From NCBI GenBank assembly GCA_017463205.1, contig JAFTPQ010000065.1, forward strand, positions 1 to 53,158: a DNA stretch of 53,158 nucleotides. The letters run 5' to 3'. The DNA comes from Clostridia bacterium. Lineage in GTDB: Bacteria; Bacillota; Clostridia; Christensenellales; Borkfalkiaceae. The notes beneath the pieces are model-generated. The model was not told the origin of the DNA. It saw only the letters and a program-made list of their open reading frames with translations, and ran no database searches. Both the position numbers and the translations under genes were made by a program. This document shows, piece by piece, positions 9,049 to 15,846 of the stretch (position 1 is its first letter; each line of letters opens with the position of its first letter).

Positions 9049-12000
9049 TTAAATTTCCAACATACCTTCATATACGGTTTTCACGTTGCCCATCAACTCA
9101 ACGTCGCCGTCCGAATGATAATTTACCGTCAAATCTCCGCCGCGTAATTTCACCGTTACGTTGGTATCTTTTTCGCAATATCCGCCCAGAACCGCCGCAA
9201 CAACCGCCGCGCATGCGCCTGTTCCGCACGCCAACGTTTCACCGCTGCCACGTTCCCATACCCGCATTTTGATCGTCACTCTATTGACGATGCGGATAAA
9301 TTCGGTGTTGATCCCCTCGGGGAAATATGCGCAGTTTTCAAACTCGGGTCCAACCGTAGCCACGTCGATCGCGTCCACTTTATCGCAGAATACGATGCAG
9401 TGAGGATTCCCTACGTTCACCAACGTTATATCGTAAGAATTGTTGCCGATCGTCACGGTTTTTCCAACGATCTGTTCTTCGTCCCATACGCAAGGAATCT
9501 TTTTTCCTGCAAGCGCCACTTTACCTAGATTTACACTTGAAGACGTTACCGTACCGCTTAACGAATAAACTTTCACGGGACAGATCACGCCCTTCGCCGT
9601 TTCGATCATCATTTCATTTTTCGGTACAATTCCCTTTTCATAAAGGTATTTTCCGATACAGCGGATCGCATTGCCGCCTGTCGGGGCTTCTTTGCCGTCC
9701 GCATTGAAAATACGCATTTTTGCATCGGCAACCGTAGAATTTTCAATCAATACGACTCCGTCGCCGCCGATACCGTAATGAGGCAATACATAATTCACCG
9801 CGATCGATTCGGGACAGGTGATCTTTCCGTCGCGATTATCAAATACGATATAATCGTTTCCGCAAGACTGCATTTTTGTGAAATTTAATTTCAACTTCTC
9901 GCTTCTCAACGCATTGATGTCCACCAATTCGGTGTTATCTTCGGTGAATTTACTTGCAATAATATCTGCCAATGCGTTCGCTGTATCCAACGCCGTCAAA
10001 ACCGTGATCCCCAACAAAATTGCATGGTGATGCAAACGAATAAAGTCGTTGATCGATTCCATATCCGTTTTGCCCGTGTAAACGATATAATCGATCTTTC
10101 CTTCGTCCATCAATTTTATCACTTCTTCCGTTGCCGAAAGACGATCCACCACTTCACAGTCGATCCCCAGATCGTTGATGACTTGCGCCGTGCCTTTGGT
10201 GGCATACATATTACAACCCAAATCGCCAAATTTCTTTGCAATCGTCAACAAATCGAGTTTGTCTTGATCGTTCACCGTCATATACACGCCGACAGGACGT
10301 TTTTCGGACGGGTGACACATCTTAAAGCCCGCCGATACCAAACCTTTGAACATCGCTTCTTCGATGGTTTTCCCGATTCCCAACACTTCGCCCGTCGATT
10401 TCATTTGCGGACCAAGTTGCGAGTTGACGTCGTTCAACTTTTCAAAACTGAACACGGGAACTTTGACCGCTACGTACGGCGAAGACGGGTACAATCCCGT
10501 TCCGTAACCGAGTTTTTTCAATTTAGCCCCTACGATGATCTTGGTTGCAAGCTCTACCATCGGCACGCCCGTCACCTTGGAAATGTAAGGAACGGTACGC
10601 GACGCACGCGGATTGACTTCGATCACGTACAACTGTCCGCGATAGATCAAGTATTGAATATTAATCAAACCTTTTGTTTTCAATTCCAACGCAAGCTGTG
10701 TAGACACTTCGATGATCCGTTCTAACATCGTATCGTCCAAATTATAGGGCGGATACACGGCAATCGAGTCACCCGAATGGATACCCGTACGTTCTATGTG
10801 TTGCATAATACCGGGAATCAATACGTCTTTTCCATCGGAAATCGCGTCTACTTCCAATTCCGTACCCATAAGGTATTTGTCGCAGAGTACCGGATTTTCG
10901 ATCCCTTGCGACAAGATGACGTCCATATACCGACAAACGTCTTCTTGGGTAAACGCGATCGTCATATTTTGACCGCCGATCACGTAAGAGGGACGAAGCA
11001 ATACGGGATATTCCAATCTTTCCGCCGCGGCAAGCGCCTCTTCTTTCGTCATTACCGTAATCGCTTTCGGTCTGGGAATAGAATATTTTTCAAGCAACGC
11101 TTCAAAGCGTTCTCTGTCTTCCGCTCTGTCCACGCTGTCTGCGGAAGTACCCAAAATACGAATTCCGTGCGTATCAAAATATGCGCAAAGATTGATCGCC
11201 GTTTGTCCGCCAAACGTAATGATAACGCCGTAAGGTTTTTCGATATCCAATACGTGTTGCACGTCTTCCGACGTTAAAGGTTCGAAATACAATCTGTCCG
11301 CCGTATCAAAGTCTGTGGAAACCGTTTCGGGGTTATTGTTGATGATCACCACTTCGTAACCAAGTTCTTTCAACGTCCATACGCAATGCACGGAAGAATA
11401 GTCGAATTCGATCCCCTGTCCGATACGGATCGGCCCCGAACCGATAACAACGATACGTTTTTTCTCGCTCTTTTCGACAAACGGTTTCGCTTCATCATGT
11501 TCGTACGGATCGAACGTTGAATAGAAATAAGGCGTTTTCGCAGGGAACTCCGCTGCGCACGTGTCCACCATTTTATATGCAACTTTCTTTCTGTACGGAA
11601 TTTTTTGTCCGCTGAACGTTTCGATATCTTTATCCAAATATCCCAAACGTTTGCCTTCTTCATACAATTCTTTCGTCAATTTTTCCGTCGCCAAACGTTC
11701 TTCGTAAGCAATCAAATTTTTAAATTTATTCAAGAACCAACGGTCGATTTTCGTGATCGCATACACTTCGTCTACCGTTACGCCCTTTTTCAAAGCCGCA
11801 TATACAACAAAAATCCGCTCGTCCGTCATTTCGGGAAGTTTCGCCAACAATTCTTCTTTCGTCGAATGGATAAACTTCTTATAATTGAAGGTACTGCTGG
11901 AAATTTCCGCGCCCCGAACGGCTTTCATCATCGCCATTTCAAATGACGTACCGATCGACATTACTTCCCCCGTCGCCTTCATTCTCGTACCCAATTCACG

Positions 12001-13107
12001 CTTTGCATACAAGAATTTATCAAACGGCCATTTCGGCATTTTTACAACCAAATAATCAATCGTCGGCTCGAAACAAGCATACGTATTGCCCGTTACGTCG
12101 TTGACGATTTCATCCAACGTATATCCAAGCGCGATCTTCGACGTCACTTTTGCAATCGGGAAACCCGTCGCCTTTGACGCCAATGCAGACGAACGGCTGA
12201 CTCGAGGGTTTACTTCGATCACTGAATATTCAAACGAATCGGGATTCAACGCAAACTGTACGTTACAGCCACCCTCGATCCCGAGTTCGGTGATGATGGA
12301 AAGCGCCGCATTTCGCAACATACCGTATTCCTTATTGGAAAGCGTCACCGCAGGAGCAACTACGATAGAGTCGCCCGTGTGGATCCCAACGGGATCGACG
12401 TTTTCCATCGAACATACCGTCAATACGTTTCCTGCGCTGTCGCGCAACACCTCAAATTCGATCTCTTTCCAACCCGCAATATATTTTTCGATCAATACCT
12501 GCGTGATCGGCGACAACATCAACCCATTGTGGGAAATGAGGCGCAGATCTTCTTCGTTATACGCTACGCCGCCGCCTGCACCGCCGAGCGTATATGCGGG
12601 ACGAATAATAACGGGATAACCCAATTTATCAGCGATCGCAACACATTCTTCCACCGTATATGCAATATCGGAAGGAACGCAAGGTTGATGGATCTTTTCC
12701 ATCGTTTCTTTAAACAGCTCTCTGTCTTCCGAACGATCGATCGCGTCCAATTTCGTTCCGATCAATTTTACGCCGTGTTTTGCCAAAAAGCCCGATTTTG
12801 CCAATTTGCAACCCATCGTCAACCCTGTTTGTCCGCCTAAAGACGCCAGCAAACTGTCGGGTTTTTCCTTGATGATAATACGTTTTAGCGTTTCTTCCGT
12901 CAGCGGTTCGAGATAGATTTCGTCCGCCAATGCGTTGTCCGTCATGATCGTTGCGGGGTTGGAGTTGCAAAGCACTACGTTTACTCCTTCGCTCTTCATC
13001 ACGCGGCAAGCTTGCGCGCCTGCATAGTCGAATTCCGCCGCTTGTCCAATGACGATAGGCCCCGAACCGATCACCAAAACTTTCTTTATATCACTTCTTT
13101 TAGGCAT
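9049..13107 (-). CDS. Carbamoyl-phosphate synthase large subunit fused to a DapF-like epimerase domain
   Basis: One uninterrupted 1352-residue frame. Residues 1 to about 1070 are a full CarB: two ATP-grasp halves (EVNPRVSRSS in the first, EVNPRASRTV in the second), the oligomerisation region between them and an MGS-like allosteric domain starting near KRPVGVYMTV. CarB makes carbamoyl phosphate from bicarbonate, ammonia and two ATP. The junction has no linker: the CarB end runs straight into LKLNFTKMQSCGNDY, and residues 1073-1352 match a complete diaminopimelate epimerase (NADGKEAPTGGNAIRC, VGNPHC, ERGSGETLACGTGAC). In active DapF the first motif carries the catalytic cysteine in MCGN; here it is TGGN, with Gly 1144 (codon 9676-9678) in its place. 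The second catalytic cysteine, C1294, is kept. The start overlaps carA by eight bases. Both domains are clearly recognisable; activity of the DapF part is doubtful. Confidence 0.95.
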   Translation of the reverse strand: MPKRSDIKKVLVIGSGPIVIGQAAEFDYAGAQACRVMKSEGVNVVLCNSNPATIMTDNALADEIYLEPLTEETLKRIIIKEKPDSLLASLGGQTGLTMGCKLAKSGFLAKHGVKLIGTKLDAIDRSEDRELFKETMEKIHQPCVPSDIAYTVEECVAIADKLGYPVIIRPAYTLGGAGGGVAYNEEDLRLISHNGLMLSPITQVLIEKYIAGWKEIEFEVLRDSAGNVLTVCSMENVDPVGIHTGDSIVVAPAVTLSNKEYGMLRNAALSIITELGIEGGCNVQFALNPDSFEYSVIEVNPRVSRSSALASKATGFPIAKVTSKIALGYTLDEIVNDVTGNTYACFEPTIDYLVVKMPKWPFDKFLYAKRELGTRMKATGEVMSIGTSFEMAMMKAVRGAEISSSTFNYKKFIHSTKEELLAKLPEMTDERIFVVYAALKKGVTVDEVYAITKIDRWFLNKFKNLIAYEERLATEKLTKELYEEGKRLGYLDKDIETFSGQKIPYRKKVAYKMVDTCAAEFPAKTPYFYSTFDPYEHDEAKPFVEKSEKKRIVVIGSGPIRIGQGIEFDYSSVHCVWTLKELGYEVVIINNNPETVSTDFDTADRLYFEPLTSEDVQHVLDIEKPYGVIITFGGQTAINLCAYFDTHGIRILGTSADSVDRAEDRERFEALLEKYSIPRPKAITVMTKEEALAAAERLEYPVLLRPSYVIGGQNMTIAFTQEDVCRYMDVILSQGIENPVLCDKYLMGTELEVDAISDGKDVLIPGIMQHIERTGIHSGDSIAVYPPYNLDDTMLERIIEVSTQLALELKTKGLINIQYLIYRGQLYVIEVNPRASRTVPYISKVTGVPMVELATKIIVGAKLKKLGYGTGLYPSSPYVAVKVPVFSFEKLNDVNSQLGPQMKSTGEVLGIGKTIEEAMFKGLVSAGFKMCHPSEKRPVGVYMTVNDQDKLDLLTIAKKFGDLGCNMYATKGTAQVINDLGIDCEVVDRLSATEEVIKLMDEGKIDYIVYTGKTDMESINDFIRLHHHAILLGITVLTALDTANALADIIASKFTEDNTELVDINALRSEKLKLNFTKMQSCGNDYIVFDNRDGKITCPESIAVNYVLPHYGIGGDGVVLIENSTVADAKMRIFNADGKEAPTGGNAIRCIGKYLYEKGIVPKNEMMIETAKGVICPVKVYSLSGTVTSSSVNLGKVALAGKKIPCVWDEEQIVGKTVTIGNNSYDITLVNVGNPHCIVFCDKVDAIDVATVGPEFENCAYFPEGINTEFIRIVNRVTIKMRVWERGSGETLACGTGACAAVVAAVLGGYCEKDTNVTVKLRGGDLTVNYHSDGDVELMGNVKTVYEGMLEI

Positions 13108-14182
13108 TTTCGTTCTCCTTTTTCATAAGACCAAAAAATTTGTTGTACAACACGTTTTCGGGATGCCCGATCCCACAGGATTCCGGATCGAATTGAACGG
13201 TGAAGGCTTTCAAATCGGGATAATCGATCCCTTCGCACGAACCGTCGTTGACGTTGATAAAGCTGATTTCACCTTGTTTCACACTTTCGGAAAGCACTTC
13301 ATAGCCGTGATTTTGCGAAGAAATATATACTTTACCGCATTTTACGCACTTGACGGGCTGATTACCGCCTCGATGACCGTATTTCTGTTTTGCCGTTTTC
13401 GCACCGAGCGCAAGAGCCACCATCTGATGTCCCAAACCGATTCCAAGCAAAGGTTTCTTCCCCATCACTTTCCCGATCTCTTCAAGGATCGAACTATTTT
13501 CCGCAGGATTGCCCGGGCCGTCGCTGAGGACTATGCCGTGCGCGCCCGTTGCAAGCACTTCTTCTGCGCTTACCGTCGCAGGAAGACTGATAACGTTGCA
13601 ACCGTGGTTTAATAAATTGTTGATCGTGCTTTGTTTTGCCCCGAAATTCCAAAGCGCAACCGTATATTCGGCGTTTTCCGTTGCAAAGAAGCCTTTTTCA
13701 CGATCCGCAACCTGTTCGATCGCATTCTCGATCTTATAACCGCTTAACGCCGCAACTTCTTCATCTGTCAGCGGTTTCTTGCTGATCCGCGCATTCATTA
13801 CGCCGTTTTCACGCAAAATTTTTGTCAATTGACGGGTGTCTACTCCGTACACGCCCACAACCCCTTCCTCTTTTAAATACGATTCGAGATCTTCTTCCGA
13901 ACGGAAATTGGACGGTTTTTCACAAAACTCTCGCACGATGAACGCCGACGCCCAAGCTTTTTTGCTTTCCGCATCCGCGCGCATTACCCCGTAGTTTCCG
14001 ATCAGCGGAAAAGTTTGCGCGATGATCTGTCCGTAGTTAGTTGGATCCGTCAATGTTTCCACATATCCGACCATACCCGTTGAAAACACCAATTCGCCCG
14101 TAATTTCACCCTCTGCACCAAAGGCATAGCCCTGAAATACGTCGCCGTTTTGTAACGTCAAATAAACTTTTTTCTTCTTCAT
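13100..14182 (-). CDS. carA: Carbamoyl-phosphate synthase small subunit with a dead glutaminase site
   Basis: CarA normally hydrolyses glutamine and passes ammonia through a tunnel to CarB. The 360-residue length and both domains are normal: an N-terminal CPSase domain (TGMVGYVETLTDP) and a class I glutamine amidotransferase fold. The catalytic residues are not normal. The nucleophile motif GICLGHQ reads GIGLGHQ, with Gly 249 (codon GGT, 13436-13438) replacing the cysteine. The catalytic His of the HPE motif is Asp 332 (FDPE, codon GAT, 13187-13189). The GHHGGNHP block is GHRGGNQP. Glu 334 and SQNHGY are kept. The frame is intact and the surrounding sequence is well conserved, so this is probably a structural subunit of an ammonia-using enzyme rather than a decaying gene. 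Mammalian CPS1 is a known precedent for loss of the nucleophile. Confidence 0.95.
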   Translation of the reverse strand: MKKKKVYLTLQNGDVFQGYAFGAEGEITGELVFSTGMVGYVETLTDPTNYGQIIAQTFPLIGNYGVMRADAESKKAWASAFIVREFCEKPSNFRSEEDLESYLKEEGVVGVYGVDTRQLTKILRENGVMNARISKKPLTDEEVAALSGYKIENAIEQVADREKGFFATENAEYTVALWNFGAKQSTINNLLNHGCNVISLPATVSAEEVLATGAHGIVLSDGPGNPAENSSILEEIGKVMGKKPLLGIGLGHQMVALALGAKTAKQKYGHRGGNQPVKCVKCGKVYISSQNHGYEVLSESVKQGEISFINVNDGSCEGIDYPDLKAFTVQFDPESCGIGHPENVLYNKFFGLMKKENENA

Positions 14183-14610: not shown

Positions 14611-15846
14611 TTAAGGCTTTCCCTCGCAAAGATCGCTCCCGAATGCCGTGGATGAATAATTGCCCATACGCAAATCGATCTCGATCTCTCTTTCCATCTC
14701 TTGCACTATCCTTTTTGCCATTTCTTTCGAAAACGATAACGGCATTCCGCTTTCAAACACCACTGTCCTTTCCTTTTCGGACGAAAACGTTATTTCCGCT
14801 TGCGATAAATCGACTTCGACCTCGGCGTTGGAAATTGCGCATATTACGCTTTCCAAATCCAACCGACCGTTCGCCAAACCTTTTTTTAATCCGATACACC
14901 CGACCACCGATCTTGCGACCGCGCGCGAAACTTGTTTGGACTTTCCCCCTCGTACGTGGCAACTGACGATCTTTCCACTCTCCGTTTCTTTCTCGATCAG
15001 CATTTTACAAACTTGCGTCAACACTTCGCGCAATATATACGTAAATTTTTTGTATTCCGTATCCATACAGGAAATTCGATAATTCCCCCCTTTTCCGTTT
15101 GCCATTATACAAACCATATCGTTGGGAGACGCTTGCCCGTCGATATCCAATAAATTGAGCGTTTCCCTCACTTCGGACAATAACGCTTTTTGCAGCATTT
15201 CGGGTGAAATATTGACGTTCGTCGTCAAAAACAACAAAGTCGTTGCCATATTGGGCGAAACGTGCGAACTCCCTTTCAATATCCCGCCAATTTTACAGGA
15301 AAATGCTCCCAAATCGAAAGAATATGAAAATTCTTTCACCGTCTTATCCGTCGTTGTAATCGCGCGCGCGGCAAGAAGACTGTGTTCTTTATCTGCGGAC
15401 AATCCCTCGATCAAATTCGGCATGTTATCGGCAAATTGTTTCAAGGAAATAGTGCCGTCCGTTCTGCCCGTAGACGCAATCACAACGTCTTGCGCGTCTA
15501 CGTTTATATATTTTCCGATCTCACGACAAGCCAATTCCGCAAGTTTTTGCCCGTCTTCGATAAAAACATTGGCAACCCCGCTGTTAATCAAGATCGCTTG
15601 ACCAAAACCTCGTCGCATATGCTTTTTCGTAACGGCGATCGGCGCGCCCTTGATGGCGCTTGTCGAATAAACGCACGCCGTCGGACAAGGTCGATCGGCA
15701 ACAATCAAAGCCAGATCTTCCTTTCCGTTTTCTTGGAATACGAAATCACCGAAACCGCAATAAACCGCATTCGCGCGAAACCCTTCCACTGCGCAAATAC
15801 CACCCTCGATCGGCGTTAATTTTCGATTGATCCCGTTTTTCCTCAC
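14611..15846 (-). CDS. argJ: Divergent ArgJ (ornithine acetyltransferase / N-acetylglutamate synthase family)
   Basis: ArgJ recycles the acetyl group from N-acetylornithine to glutamate and matures by self-cleavage before a threonine. The 411-residue protein matches along its length, including the autocleavage site PNMATT with the nucleophile at T202. It departs from the family at several points: KGSGMI is KGSSHV, NSGNAN is NSGVAN, and the conserved block KTAxFGxDPNWGR is replaced by GCIGLKKGLANGR, losing the usual lysine. The usual C-terminal YVxINAxY(R/H)T is absent; the protein stops at GSDLCEGKP soon after the normally conserved AWGCDL. It starts with GTG behind a Shine-Dalgarno (AGAGGT). 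No other arginine gene is near. It is probably read from the thioesterase promoter. Catalytic ability is uncertain. Confidence 0.85.
   Translation of the reverse strand: MRKNGINRKLTPIEGGICAVEGFRANAVYCGFGDFVFQENGKEDLALIVADRPCPTACVYSTSAIKGAPIAVTKKHMRRGFGQAILINSGVANVFIEDGQKLAELACREIGKYINVDAQDVVIASTGRTDGTISLKQFADNMPNLIEGLSADKEHSLLAARAITTTDKTVKEFSYSFDLGAFSCKIGGILKGSSHVSPNMATTLLFLTTNVNISPEMLQKALLSEVRETLNLLDIDGQASPNDMVCIMANGKGGNYRISCMDTEYKKFTYILREVLTQVCKMLIEKETESGKIVSCHVRGGKSKQVSRAVARSVVGCIGLKKGLANGRLDLESVICAISNAEVEVDLSQAEITFSSEKERTVVFESGMPLSFSKEMAKRIVQEMEREIEIDLRMGNYSSTAFGSDLCEGKP

Follow-up and report, generated by a model that had tools for sequence, protein, structure and literature searches.

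What does a bacterial carbamoyl-phosphate synthase (CPS) use as nitrogen donor when its small subunit has lost the residues that hydrolyse glutamine? The question is raised by carA in the window, by which we mean the whole 53,158-nucleotide stretch of DNA analysed here, from a Clostridia bacterium of the family Borkfalkiaceae (assembly GCA_017463205.1, contig JAFTPQ010000065.1). Cys269 and His353 of the E. coli enzyme are named as essential for glutamine hydrolysis (PMC6245113), and both are replaced in the window protein. Here we demonstrate, at the level of sequence, that this CarA appears to have lost glutamine hydrolysis for good. We consider it likely that the window encodes an ammonia-dependent CPS in which the dead small subunit survives as a scaffold, and that this belongs to a broader replacement of glutamine by free ammonia in nucleotide synthesis. 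The gene and its altered sites are the following:

13100..14182, minus strand: carA, CPS small subunit without the glutaminase triad (360-residue open reading frame, Pfam and NCBIfam matches, alignment)
13436..13438, minus strand: codon 249, GGT (Gly), at the place of the nucleophile, E. coli Cys269 (alignment, codon readout)
13187..13189, minus strand: codon 332, GAT (Asp), at the place of the catalytic His, E. coli His353 (alignment, codon readout)
13160..13174, minus strand: remodelled loop, codons 337-341 (Gly-Ile-Gly-His-Pro), corresponding to E. coli Pro358-Asp362 (alignment, model)
13520..13522, minus strand: codon 221, Asp for a conserved Asn (E. coli Asn240; Asn retained in 0 of 27 clade members)
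14039..14041, minus strand: codon 48, Thr for Ser (E. coli Ser47; Ser retained in 11 of 27 clade members)

The frame is open from its ATG start to its end, as the sequence-only reading of this DNA had stated, and the product belongs to the CarA family. It combines the CPSase small-chain N domain (CPSase_sm_chain, 7.7e-50) with a class I GATase fold (GATase, 7.4e-32), and it scores above cut-off against both NCBIfam models (PRK12838.1, 389.7 bits; TIGR01368, 377.8 bits). The two substitutions announced in that reading are what the codons specify: Cys has become Gly and His has become Asp, so that the triad of a glutamine-hydrolysing (CPS II type) enzyme is broken, with Glu334 retained. Two further histidine changes, where the window reads GHRGGNQP and E. 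coli GHHGGNHP, had been counted as part of the same loss. We rejected them as damage, since relatives with Cys and His intact also read GHRG and many of them NQP (e.g., G007, G010, G028, G041, and G081; G handles denote the genomes compared, G000 being the window's own).

CarA loci were taken from 61 searched genomes (36 genus members and 24 order members besides the window's own), and further ones from a PF00117 search of 57 genus genomes. An ortholog of the window CarA is present in 45 of the 57. Both triad residues are gone in 41 of these orthologs (27 with both sites in one alignment, G018 and G019 with two contigs each, and 12 more), and both are retained in the other four (G007, G010, G028, and G080), which are 57-59% identical to the window CarA. 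A second and distant CarA type is intact in G001 and G002 and has lost the triad in G031; no CarA was seen by the PF00117 search in the nine remaining genus genomes. Among the 27 aligned lost proteins, 25 have Gly at the Cys site, one has Asp, and one has Glu. The His site is occupied by Ala (7), Thr (7), Asp (5), Val (3), Met (2), Ser (2), or Asn (1), and seven different residues at one catalytic position fit loss rather than new chemistry. In a tree of 56 CarA built with the trait columns masked, all 41 lost rows lie on one side of one branch, and the only other lost row (G133) is placed apart from them. A larger tree recovers the 27 lost rows as a clade with a Shimodaira-Hasegawa-like approximate likelihood ratio (SH-aLRT) of 98. 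It had been proposed, from the letters alone, to check whether both substitutions are fixed across a clade, and they are.

The pattern of change within CarA was evaluated on 68 columns conserved at 95% or more among 89 CarA with Cys and His. Retention falls below 70% in the 27 lost proteins at ten of them (E. coli Ser47, Asp198, Asn240, Cys269, Val350, His353, Gly359, Pro360, Asp362, and Phe367). Mean retention is 96% for the 25 N-domain columns and 78% for the 43 GATase columns. Conserved members of the glutamine pocket, according to a residue list that is our own assumption, average 72% vs. 79% for the other GATase columns. Loss is thus concentrated at a few positions instead of affecting the pocket as a whole; Gln273, which with Ser47 we take to be a glutamine contact, is retained in 21 of 27. 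Over 351 clade pairs, the mean proportions of nonsynonymous (pN) and synonymous (pS) differences are 0.166 and 0.659 in the N domain and 0.248 and 0.676 in the GATase domain, while three intact relatives show the same pN, 0.063, in both domains. Because pN rises in the clade GATase domain and is equal in the two domains of the intact relatives, the former is, by this comparison, relaxed but still selected and not neutral.

In all 27 aligned clade proteins, E. coli Gly359, Pro360, and Asp362 are replaced. These residues belong to the tunnel loop that adjoins the catalytic HPE motif, and the structure 1M6V is that of an E. coli point mutant, G359F, at this loop position. E. coli CPS variants with a blocked or perforated glutamine tunnel are described as having normal activity with external ammonia (PMC4655335). 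An AlphaFold2 model of the window CarA, built with 17 sequences, reached a mean predicted local distance difference test (pLDDT) score of 86.6 and a predicted template modelling score (pTM) of 0.88. Runs of at least three residues with pLDDT below 50 occur only at 61-63 and at 333-339, the latter being the tunnel loop. The model has template modelling (TM) scores of 0.89-0.92 to E. coli CarA chains and 0.83-0.86 to human CPS1 chains. We take this to mean that the CarA fold is kept, with the glutamine site and its exit gone. That the loop serves as an entry port for ammonia is a guess.

The large subunit has fared differently. It is encoded directly downstream, in the following surroundings:

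9049..13107, minus strand: carB fused to dapF, 1352 residues (Pfam and NCBIfam, locus comparison)
9052..9885, minus strand: DapF portion, starting at about residue 1075 of the fusion protein (Pfam and NCBIfam)
14611..15846, minus strand: argJ-like gene upstream, arginine-synthesis context (below NCBIfam cut-offs)

The start of carB overlaps the end of carA by 8 bases, in a gene order common to relatives, as for operon partners. CarB aligns with E. coli CarB along nearly its whole length. Its identity between clade species is 94%, vs. 81% for DapF and 44% for ArgJ, and 302 of the 310 columns invariant in 14 CarB that stand beside an intact CarA are kept in all 22 clade CarB compared. The motifs around Cys232 and Ala251 (E. 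coli numbers, which we presume to be those of the ammonia-gate residues) are likewise present in 22 of 22. The gate itself is described with CPS1 residue numbers in PMC4655335. As far as alignments can tell, CarA is damaged mainly at the glutaminase site and in the tunnel loop next to it, whereas CarB has hardly changed. Genes of the ornithine and aspartate transcarbamoylase (OTCase/ATCase) families are found in 55 of the 57 genus genomes.

Two features of these surroundings are reported as separate observations. An in-frame fusion of CarB to DapF, a diaminopimelate epimerase, is a feature of the genus loci of the window carAB type that have a complete, uninterrupted CarB; it recurs in G041, G042, and G049, which belong to other families. 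It is absent from G043, G050, G052, and G058 and from second-type loci such as that of G001, and a literature search for a CarB-DapF fusion gave no match. The ArgJ-like protein scores below both of its NCBIfam cut-offs (249.8 vs. 298 and 248.2 vs. 351), and its activity is uncertain.

The sequence-only reading dealt with one enzyme, and on sequence grounds PurF, GuaA, and PyrG follow the same trend as CarA in the same genomes. PurF begins MAV(F/L)G(I/V)(F/Y)G, with neither Cys nor propeptide, in all 25 clade genomes read, and reads EECGVFG in four of four intact genus members. A Cys-to-Ala substitution was considered and dropped: when the proteins are aligned on VFG, the start Met stands at the place of Cys and Ala comes next, and only loss of Cys and propeptide is claimed. 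The PurF of G000 matches TIGR01134 purF with 462.5 bits (cut-off 350) in a run of purE, purF, purM, purN, a helix-turn-helix gene, purD, and purL, and is thus a genuine family member of the PurF'-like kind, lacking the N-terminal Cys. Most clade genomes have one PurF-size match; G035 has two. E. coli PurF in which Cys is changed to Ala or Ser is reported to still use ammonia (PMC3261824).

GMP synthetase (PF00958) is matched in 37 of the 41 clade genomes. In 35 of them the open reading frames measure 321-352 residues, too short for a glutaminase domain, and the other two are fragments; in G011 and G035 a different contig encodes a full-length GuaA as well. The short guaA lies near guaB in G000 and G036, and GMP synthetase is described as able to use external ammonia in vitro (PMC10526850). 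The window genome itself has two GuaA matches of equal score (G000:C40:1118-1393 and G000:C51:22631-22906), which may stem from duplication or from the presence of another strain in the bin. CTP synthase (PF06418) is present in nine of the 57 genus genomes, with no match in the other 48, among them seven of the 12 that are at least 90% complete. No pyrG was found in 39 of the 41 clade genomes. The two that have it are G011 and G013, and the contig concerned also carries the full GuaA in G011 and an intact carA in G013.

Similar losses recur elsewhere in the order, where 91 of 151 genomes have a CarA match. The 60 without one include G097, G147, and G172, of the same family and 98-99% complete. 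Beyond the genus, a CarA copy that lacks Cys, His, or both occurs in 16 genomes (G038, G042, G044, G059, G091, G093, G098, G105, G107, G133, G139, G158, G164, G188, G194, and G206). It is the only CarA found in ten of them; G038, G093, G105, G158, G194, and G206 have an intact copy too. Only His is gone in G093, G139, G158, and G194, and only Cys in G059, G133, G164, G188, and G206. From 139 aligned CarA, six incomplete ones were left out, and on the resulting tree of 133, with trait columns masked, the state of the triad needs 12 changes, or at least six when only well supported branches are counted; several lost rows sit on long branches, which makes their placement unsure. In G133, whose sister species G117 and G160 are intact, Cys has become Asp, apparently a recent loss.

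Loss in CarA and in GuaA tend to go together in the order. In 37 chosen order genomes, with full length judged from the length of the open reading frame, the six without full-length GuaA (G042, G091, G098, G107, G164, and G188) have no intact CarA, vs. 24 with intact CarA among the 28 that have full-length GuaA and a CarA (Fisher p = 1.6e-4, uncorrected for kinship). A weaker count finds short or vestigial GuaA in 10 of 16 genomes with a lost CarA copy and in 3 of 18 with intact CarA only (p = 0.012). The exceptions are G038, G044, G059, G093, G133, and G139, with a lost CarA copy and only full-length GuaA, and G084, G088, and G200, which have a short or vestigial GuaA as an additional copy beside an intact CarA. 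In vestigial forms the glutaminase domain is cut down to its first part, and the nucleophile is absent. We do not count the shortened proteins as so many separate losses, because a GuaA tree (n = 41, only four of them full-length, others such as G059, G080, G005, and G042 having failed the motif filter) groups 26 of the 27 short and 9 of the 10 vestigial forms in a single clade that excludes the four full-length proteins, so that most belong to one glutaminase-less family; the exceptions are G200s and G107. PurF keeps its Cys in most order genomes read and has lost it in G042 and in one PurF of G093. As further observations, L367-L373 and L375-L378 are GMP synthetases with a shortened glutaminase domain (open reading frames of 431-483 residues), some of their genomes also having full-length GuaA, and carA, purF, and guaA lie within a few kilobases, as an amidotransferase gene cluster, in G158:C3 and G194:C2.

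A CarA search matched 18 named relatives, not counting one further weak match to a Thermodesulfovibrio record. Eleven of these have animal sample names, all from caecum, colon, or rectum, and the hosts are roe deer, sheep, goat, and water deer. One of the 18, L103, has an intact CarA. The hindgut is an environment high in ammonia, a habitat in keeping with free ammonia as donor.

These observations can be joined into one mechanism. With the glutaminase site inactive and the synthetase subunit conserved, the window pair has the sequence characters of an ammonia-dependent (CPS I-like) enzyme. CarA would be kept as a folded partner of CarB, as its conservation and model suggest, and CarB would take free NH3 from the cytosol to form carbamate and then carbamoyl phosphate. 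The latter would feed the ornithine and aspartate transcarbamoylases whose family genes are present. Because the conserved tunnel loop Pro358-Asp362 is rebuilt, NH3 probably enters beside or through the dead subunit and not from the glutamine site. PurF without its N-terminal Cys, GMP synthetase without its glutaminase domain, and the near absence of CTP synthase would belong to the same change. Life in a hindgut rich in ammonia is the likely driver, since channelling of glutamine-derived ammonia may bring no benefit there. The proposal made from the window alone, a bacterial ammonia-dependent CPS that keeps CarA for structure, is thus supported by the clade-wide loss, the conserved CarB, and the OTCase/ATCase genes, with the donor and the scaffold role as its probable parts. 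With only a little more belief than doubt we extend it to a lineage-wide move to NH3 for CarA-CarB, PurF, and GMP synthetase, in which the rebuilt loop would be the entry port, CTP would come from salvage or an unknown ammonia-dependent enzyme, and the change would have been repeated independently several times in related families of the order.

Other explanations have to be weighed against this one. GGT and GAT are each a single base away from TGT and CAT, and the window genome is fragmented into 73 contigs, as a sequencing or assembly error might require; nevertheless, the chance of such an error is negligible, because 40 other species-level genomes of the genus carry replacements, by various residues, at both positions. 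The dead CarA could instead be a regulator that binds glutamine or another effector and tunes CarB, ammonia being the donor. Lys202, Gly241, Asn311, and His312 are invariant in 27 of 27 lost proteins, and pN in the GATase domain is well below pS, as such a role would have it. We still find it unlikely, since the presumed glutamine contacts Ser47 and Gln273 vary, Gly359, Pro360, and Asp362 are lost, and scaffold constraint accounts for the remaining conservation.

It is improbable, too, that a separate glutaminase replaces the dead domain and supplies CarB with ammonia in trans. Two-subunit glutaminases are described as common in this enzyme class (PMC3376133). However, the expected partner, CarA, is still present. 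In G079 (96% complete) the dead CarA is the only PF00117 match, and in other clade genomes further matches number a few at most and are mainly the size of HisH; six HisH were read and have normal Cys and His, and the one of G036, whose neighbours were read, lies among his genes. This search covered PF00117, PF13522, and PF13507 only, and glutaminases outside these families were not searched for. Still less credit can be given to a decaying carA in a CarAB that no longer makes carbamoyl phosphate, with another source or the import of arginine and pyrimidines in its place. The faster evolution of the GATase domain than of the N domain, the order genomes without a CarA match, and a stop a few codons early at the carA C terminus in G004, G013, G014, and G029 would agree with decay, but the frames are otherwise open in diverged species, CarB is almost unchanged between them, and the OTCase/ATCase genes persist.

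The ammonia-dependent scaffold reading nevertheless has several observations against it. E. coli CPS is stated to require very high and likely unphysiological ammonia (PMC6245113). Glutamine is probably available to these bacteria, as glutamine-synthetase family matches occur in 52 of 57 genus genomes (mostly partial, in open reading frames of about 700 residues), although G000 has none. Not every glutamine-using enzyme has changed: normal Cys and His were found in the six HisH, and Cys is kept in two of two PurL and in GlmS of all seven clade members in which it was read. The invariance of the four pocket residues named above exceeds what plain decay predicts, and carB is split in the G017 and G029 assemblies. 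Finally, an intact second carA, which the sequence-only reading suggested looking for, gave a divided answer. None was found in the window's own genome, which is only 73% complete, or in seven lost-CarA members that are at least 90% complete (G026, G030, G034, G036, G062, G063, and G079), but G011 and G013, equally complete and also with lost CarA, carry an extra intact carA on a separate contig, either by mis-binning or as a second gene. As a side observation on GlmS, a class II GATase match of its size is present in only seven of the 41 clade genomes and is missing from G007 and G028, both intact relatives; NagB, working in reverse with ammonia, might stand in for it.

The closest known parallel is vertebrate CPS1, which is described as having lost the catalytic Cys (Ser in human) while keeping a glutaminase-like fold and using free ammonia (PMC4655335; PMC7657897). 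Like it, the window CarA lacks the catalytic Cys and keeps that fold. CPS1 is a single polypeptide that requires N-acetylglutamate and works in the urea cycle, whereas the window has separate carA and carB genes next to an argJ-like gene, and has lost both Cys and His. The window pair resembles E. coli CarAB in having two subunits with the same domains and the CarA fold, and differs from it in lacking the triad and the conserved tunnel loop and in the fusion of CarB to DapF. Crenarchaeal PurF' is a PurF-like protein without N-terminal Cys that stands beside a normal PurF and for which ammonia use was proposed but untested (PMC3261824). The clade PurF also lacks Cys; unlike the crenarchaeal case, there is mostly one PurF-size match per genome, and CarA and GuaA have changed too. 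Single-domain NadE is a synthetase without glutaminase, and in Salmonella there is evidence that its donor is free ammonia (PMC3376133); the window enzyme would likewise work without a glutaminase.

Table 1 of an amidotransferase survey, which counted gene arrangement and not residues, lists no glutaminase-less arrangement for carAB (600 genomes), guaA (730), or pyrG (800) (PMC3376133). Our literature search found no triad-less bacterial CarA in titles or abstract openings, most subscription papers being outside its coverage. An enzyme of this kind is known from vertebrates; what is more unusual is that several enzymes share the loss. For E. coli CPSase, and by extension for all bacterial CPSases, the physiological donor is given as glutamine (PMC6245113). 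Bacterial CPS is regarded as dependent on glutamine, and ammonia channelling is the usual example given for the purpose of glutaminase domains. A clade in which the glutaminase is dismantled in several enzymes, with intact sister species, would be a natural experiment on the value of channelling and a bacterial counterpart to the step from CPS III to CPS I in vertebrates. Possible intermediates may exist in related families, where only Cys or only His is lost or GuaA has half a glutaminase domain. The reading also makes a testable prediction, that these uncultured gut bacteria would depend on ammonia.

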